DNA from: Phycisphaerae bacterium | GTDB taxonomy: Bacteria > Planctomycetota > Phycisphaerae > UBA1845 > UTPLA1 | Assembly (NCBI GenBank): GCA_019636475.1 | Contig: JAHBXN010000002.1 | Location: forward strand, 248,001 to 312,000 | Direction of reading: 5' to 3' | DNA length: 64,000 nt | Shown: piece by piece, positions 58,907-59,152 of the stretch | Layout of the letters: each line of letters opens with the position of its first letter | How positions within the stretch are numbered: the stretch's first letter is position 1 | The notes under the pieces: model-generated | What the model saw: only the letters and a program-made list of their open reading frames with translations | Told to the model about the DNA's origin: nothing | Database searches by the model: none | Program-made: the position numbers and the translations under genes

Positions 58907-59152
58907 ATGACTCACATCACGATTACATATTGCGGCATGTGAAACTACGCTCCGCAAGCTGCCGGTCTGGTAGCGGAATTGGAGGCGAAGTTCGGAAAAG
59001 AGAATCTTCGAGCGGAAACGATCGTTGGATCAAAAGGTGTGTTTGATGTCGTCGTCAATGGCGACCTGATATACAGCAAACACCAAACCGGCACCTTCCC
59101 AAGACTTGGCGAGATTCCCTCCATCCTGCAGATGAAGGGCCTGGCCCCCTAG
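58907..59152 (+). CDS. SelW/Rdx-family selenoprotein (in-frame UGA read as selenocysteine)
   Basis: The frame runs from ATG 58907 to TAG 59150-59152, with one TGA at codon 12 (58940-58942). Read through as selenocysteine (U), the 81-residue protein begins MTHITITYCGMUNYAPQAAG. The CxxU motif sits after a first beta strand, as in SelW and the SelT/SelW/SelH (Rdx) thioredoxin-like family (PF10262). The second half, GVFDVVVNGDLIYSKHQTG followed by TFP, is the conserved C-terminal block of that family. GGAGG lies five bases before the ATG. The frame resumes in the same register after TGA and keeps family similarity to its end, which argues strongly against a pseudogene. The likely role is a small redox protein; the partner is unknown. 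Selenocysteine insertion needs selA, selB, selC and selD, which are not in this window. Confidence 0.88.
58940..58987 (+). promoter_or_regulatory. Bacterial SECIS-like hairpin downstream of UGA
   Basis: Immediately after the UGA, a two-tier stem can form. The lower stem pairs 58948-58953 (CGCTCC) with 58981-58984 plus 58986-58987 (GGAG, CG), with one bulged G. The upper stem pairs 58958-58963 (GCTGCC) with 58969-58974 (GGTAGC), including one G-T pair. The apical loop is GGTCT (58964-58968), the same GGUCU as in the E. coli fdhF element, and begins 21 bases after the UGA. It lies inside the coding region, as bacterial SECIS elements do. Confidence 0.75.

Follow-up and report, generated by a model that had tools for sequence, protein, structure and literature searches.

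The window, a stretch of 64,000 nucleotides of planctomycete DNA, almost certainly carries a genuine selenoprotein W-type gene in which an apparent stop codon, UGA, is read as selenocysteine. The preliminary description of this DNA had proposed such a gene, and its coordinates proved exact when the start codon (ATG, 58907-58909), the UGA at codon 12 and the terminal TAG (59150-59152) were re-read directly in the sequence; the strong ribosome site that it had placed before the ATG was also found, as GGAGGG, 4 nt upstream. The features of the locus are as follows.

58907-59152, plus strand: selW-like gene of 81 amino acids with Sec as residue 12, matched by PF10262, NF041051 and TIGR02174
58897-58902, plus strand: GGAGGG, Shine-Dalgarno-like, read directly in the sequence
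58931-58942, plus strand: codons TGC GGC ATG TGA of the C-G-M-U redox motif, the CxxU of which is kept in relatives of the same bacterial family
58940-58942, plus strand: in-frame UGA, codon 12, predicted to be read as selenocysteine from its conservation as TGA in relatives and the Sec machinery in the genome
58958-58974, plus strand: very probable bacterial SECIS hairpin, GCUGCC-GGUCU-GGUAGC, with covariation in 24 sequences and the sole strong covariance-model match in the window and the genome

With TGA translated as U, the frame yields a product that begins MTHITITYCGMUNY and ends QMKGLAP before the TAG. The PF10262 (Rdx) match runs across the UGA, covering residues 3-72 (E 2.7e-18, 66.4 bits against a cut-off of 22.6), and the CxxU motif follows the first beta strand, in YCGMUNY. 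Two NCBIfam models for SelT/W/H proteins were also matched: TIGR02174 at 55.9 bits (E 3.9e-15), above its cut-off of 34.2, and NF041051 at 82 bits (E 2.7e-23), slightly below its cut-off of 88. The latter model, named for the Campylobacter group, gave the best score for the product, yet membership of that equivalog is not supported at 82 against 88 bits, and the gene is therefore filed only under the broader SelW-like family. Cysteine homologues have CxxC at the same place, as in an archaeal locus (L034), in L083 and in Agrobacterium Atu0228 (PDB 2fa8), which bears out the assignment to the SelW/Rdx family with CxxU over CxxC. Atu0228 belongs to the same family by sequence (residues 3-70, E 7.2e-6); this and the other solved Rdx proteins have CxxC, whereas the product described here has CxxU. 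The gene shares with the bacterial SelW-like family (PF10262, TIGR02174, NF041051) its profile, a Sec as the second redox residue in CxxU, a SECIS directly downstream and a genome with SelA, SelB, SelC and SelD; it shows no essential difference from the published members and is another of them (PMC1794560, PMC1088965, PMC2398784).

The preliminary description had advised a search for the Sec machinery elsewhere in the genome, and all four components were found. There is one strong tRNA-Sec gene (selC; anticodon TCA, 66.1 bits), selA (511 bits) and selB (337 bits, joined) adjoin one another on contig 4, and selD (371 bits; L018) lies on contig 2, the same contig as the window, at 328684-329607 on the minus strand, about 16.7 kb past the window end. 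Genes with strong matches, selA and selB among them, have no in-frame TGA. The selD gene has an in-frame TGA of its own, in the context A-N-C-A-G-U-A-G-K of the reverse-strand translation, and selenophosphate synthetase thus appears to be itself a selenoprotein in this genome. A selenoprotein formate dehydrogenase was also sought in the genome, with matches that fell below the cut-off and were without in-frame stops. When the genome was scanned for other selenoproteins with a SECIS covariance model, too SelW-specific to find others, only the selW-like gene stood out and the next matches had E of at least 0.2. A codon-usage scan of the window for more TGA-containing genes, insensitive in that the selW-like gene itself fell outside its top 40, returned only weak scores, mostly from shadow or antisense-like frames, and no second convincing candidate.

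The UGA is conserved. An Rdx gene is present in all 17 genomes of the bacterial family to which the window belongs (12 genera), that is in 16 of 16 sampled relatives; 22 of the 23 Rdx matches in this family contain exactly one TGA, and in the 21 of these 22 that were read, the TGA was at the CxxU position every time. Loci of less closely related bacteria, in Planctomycetota, Acidobacteria and Acidimicrobiia, likewise have CxxU. The frame downstream of the UGA is under strong purifying selection: in three close pairs within the family dN was 0-0.015 and dS 0.17-0.68, with differences almost only at third codon positions. Values of dN/dS against distant relatives were discarded, as the sequences had been compared without gaps and were in part out of register. 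According to the preliminary description, homologues with a sense codon other than Cys at the Sec position would speak against the proposal. Taken literally such homologues do exist, as four divergent second copies of Rdx, but all four genomes also keep a TGA copy (E ≤1e-13), so the four do not count against the gene in the window. At the corresponding place they read C-E-V-G (L086), C-V-P-G (L087), S-E-P-A (L085) and R-R-V-P (L088), so that Gly, Ala or Pro replaces Sec and the redox pair is absent; they have the look of separate second copies with no redox function.

A hairpin behind the UGA had been claimed, and one is present at 58958-58974. Six pairs are formed between 58958-58963 and 58969-58974 around the 5 nt loop GGUCU, which begins 21 nt after the UGA, and the energy is -10.7 kcal/mol. 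This satisfies every constraint of a bacterial SECIS model with an apical loop of 3-9 nt, an upper stem of 4-16 pairs, a G in the first two loop positions, a UGA-to-loop distance of 16-37 nt and an energy of at most -7.5 kcal/mol (PMC13188914). Folding energy alone was unremarkable (z -1.27 against shuffles of a 54-nt stretch), and an Rfam scan of the hairpin at gathering and permissive thresholds gave no family match. Across 24 distinct relatives, 95.1% of cells were paired compared with 85.3% in shuffles, and the covariation score of 0.329, against a shuffled value of 0.132, was reached by none of 500 shuffles; as kinship can lift related sequences above shuffles without any structure, it is the slide control and a synonymous pair that bear the SECIS argument. 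When the partner strand was moved by 1-3 columns every measure fell, and covariation reached at most 0.188. Two pairs show compensatory changes on both sides, and columns 21 and 33, each a third codon position, were paired in 24 of 24 sequences as CG, GC, GU or UA. A covariance model built from the relatives scored 54.4 bits at the hairpin and found nothing comparable elsewhere in the window or genome; the hairpin was among the sequences from which the model was built, and the match shows only that no other place resembles it. This comparative evidence makes a genuine bacterial SECIS very probable.

The reading of the in-frame UGA as a Sec codon, which the preliminary description had put forward, is thus supported by the full Sec machinery, the conserved UGA and the covarying hairpin. 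One alternative is that a CxxC gene was broken by mutation or sequencing error, and in one sequence a single-base change of TGC or TGT to TGA would look just the same. However, TGA stands at the same codon in relatives of 12 genera and in other lineages, from independent assemblies, purifying selection acts downstream of it and the hairpin covaries, and we regard a pseudogene or an error as extremely improbable. The preliminary description had likewise thought it a poor explanation, and the recurrence of the UGA in independent assemblies upholds that judgement.

Two further alternatives accept the UGA as real and deny that it encodes Sec. It might be a true stop, with a second start codon giving a shorter protein, but the shorter product would have neither the first beta strand nor the Cys, conservation extends jointly over both sides of the UGA, and the conserved hairpin would be purposeless; there is very little chance that this is the case. 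It might instead be decoded by a recoded tRNA as Trp, Gly or Cys, and genomes with reassigned UGA are indeed known. The present genome, however, has tRNA-Sec, SelA, SelB and SelD, its selA, selB and similar strong matches do not contain in-frame TGA, and a SECIS-type hairpin follows the UGA directly, which makes this no less remote than the other two.

We propose that ribosomes initiate at 58907 and come to the UGA at 58940, where SelB, carrying Sec-tRNA(Sec) and docked on the GGUCU hairpin (58958-58974), would insert selenocysteine, and that translation would then continue to the TAG at 59150. By analogy with the family, the 81-amino-acid product is predicted to adopt the Rdx thioredoxin-like fold, with Cys9 and Sec12 forming the CxxU active site, and to act as a small thiol/selenol redox protein, probably by way of a Cys-Sec bond that glutathione or a thioredoxin resolves.

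Standard gene prediction cuts short or discards genes with an in-frame UGA, and the selW-like gene was probably missed by ordinary gene callers; it provides a clean, cross-checked case of a gene that they lose. SelW-like CxxU proteins form a classical, long-known family of bacterial selenoproteins, among the commonest, and outnumber all other selenoproteins in marine metagenomes (PMC1794560, PMC1088965, PMC2398784). Sec use has been published for several Planctomycetes (PMC4807772). In Campylobacter jejuni, an organism distant from the present one, a SelW likewise of 80-81 amino acids (CJnc60) is made by means of UGA and tRNA-Sec, and ribosome profiling and proteomics demonstrated translation past the UGA (PMC11955535). 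Given these precedents the finding is correct and ordinary, and it alters no concept. The preliminary description rightly treated the family as known; the occurrence here and the planctomycete context, which it had offered as the new points, are only weakly new in view of the classical family and the earlier report on Planctomycetes (PMC4807772). The limited literature covered yielded no study of SelW for this group.

In a sample of 199 genomes from the phylum, Rdx was present in 85, and 84 of these had at least one TGA-containing match, the position of the TGA having been read for this genome and four fetched loci (L089-L092), all CxxU. The gene thus adds to the evidence for common Sec use in the phylum (TGA-containing Rdx in 84/199 sampled genomes). 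A selA of at least 263 bits accompanied the TGA-containing Rdx in 76 of the 84 genomes, and seven of the remaining eight hold selB above the cut-off, so that a strong selA or selB occurs in 83 of 84. Co-occurrence of TGA-containing Rdx with selA was strong (counts 76, 8, 60 and 55; Fisher p 4.6e-9, for genomes that are not independent). The single exception, G077 (L091), is about 90% complete and carries Rdx in the CxxU form, yet it lacks both a strong selA and a selB above the cut-off; either contigs are missing or the gene is a relict. The one Rdx-bearing genome of the sample that lacks a TGA copy (G020), the source of the CxxC locus L083, was without any selA match or any selB above the cut-off.

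Twelve sampled genomes from other families of the same class contained neither Rdx nor selA, compared with Rdx in 17 of 17 for the window's family, and Sec use within the class looks patchy. In this bacterial family SelW is perhaps a core selenoprotein, kept as Sec with hardly any reversion to Cys while the other sampled families of the class are without Rdx or selA, and the entire Sec machinery may owe its persistence to one or two small selenoproteins (SelW, SelD); we consider this rather unlikely and advance it tentatively.

No promoter or terminator pattern stood out at the selW-like gene, and it has no conserved neighbours in common with its relatives. Among the relatives the neighbours of selW differ by sub-lineage, being a nitroreductase, a UDP-glucose/GDP-mannose dehydrogenase or a pyruvate kinase, with no common partner. 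In one sub-lineage (L065, L067, L073 and L074) selW lies beside a nitroreductase-family gene (PF00881), an arrangement not seen in the window, and this nitroreductase is a possible redox partner of selW in that sub-lineage.
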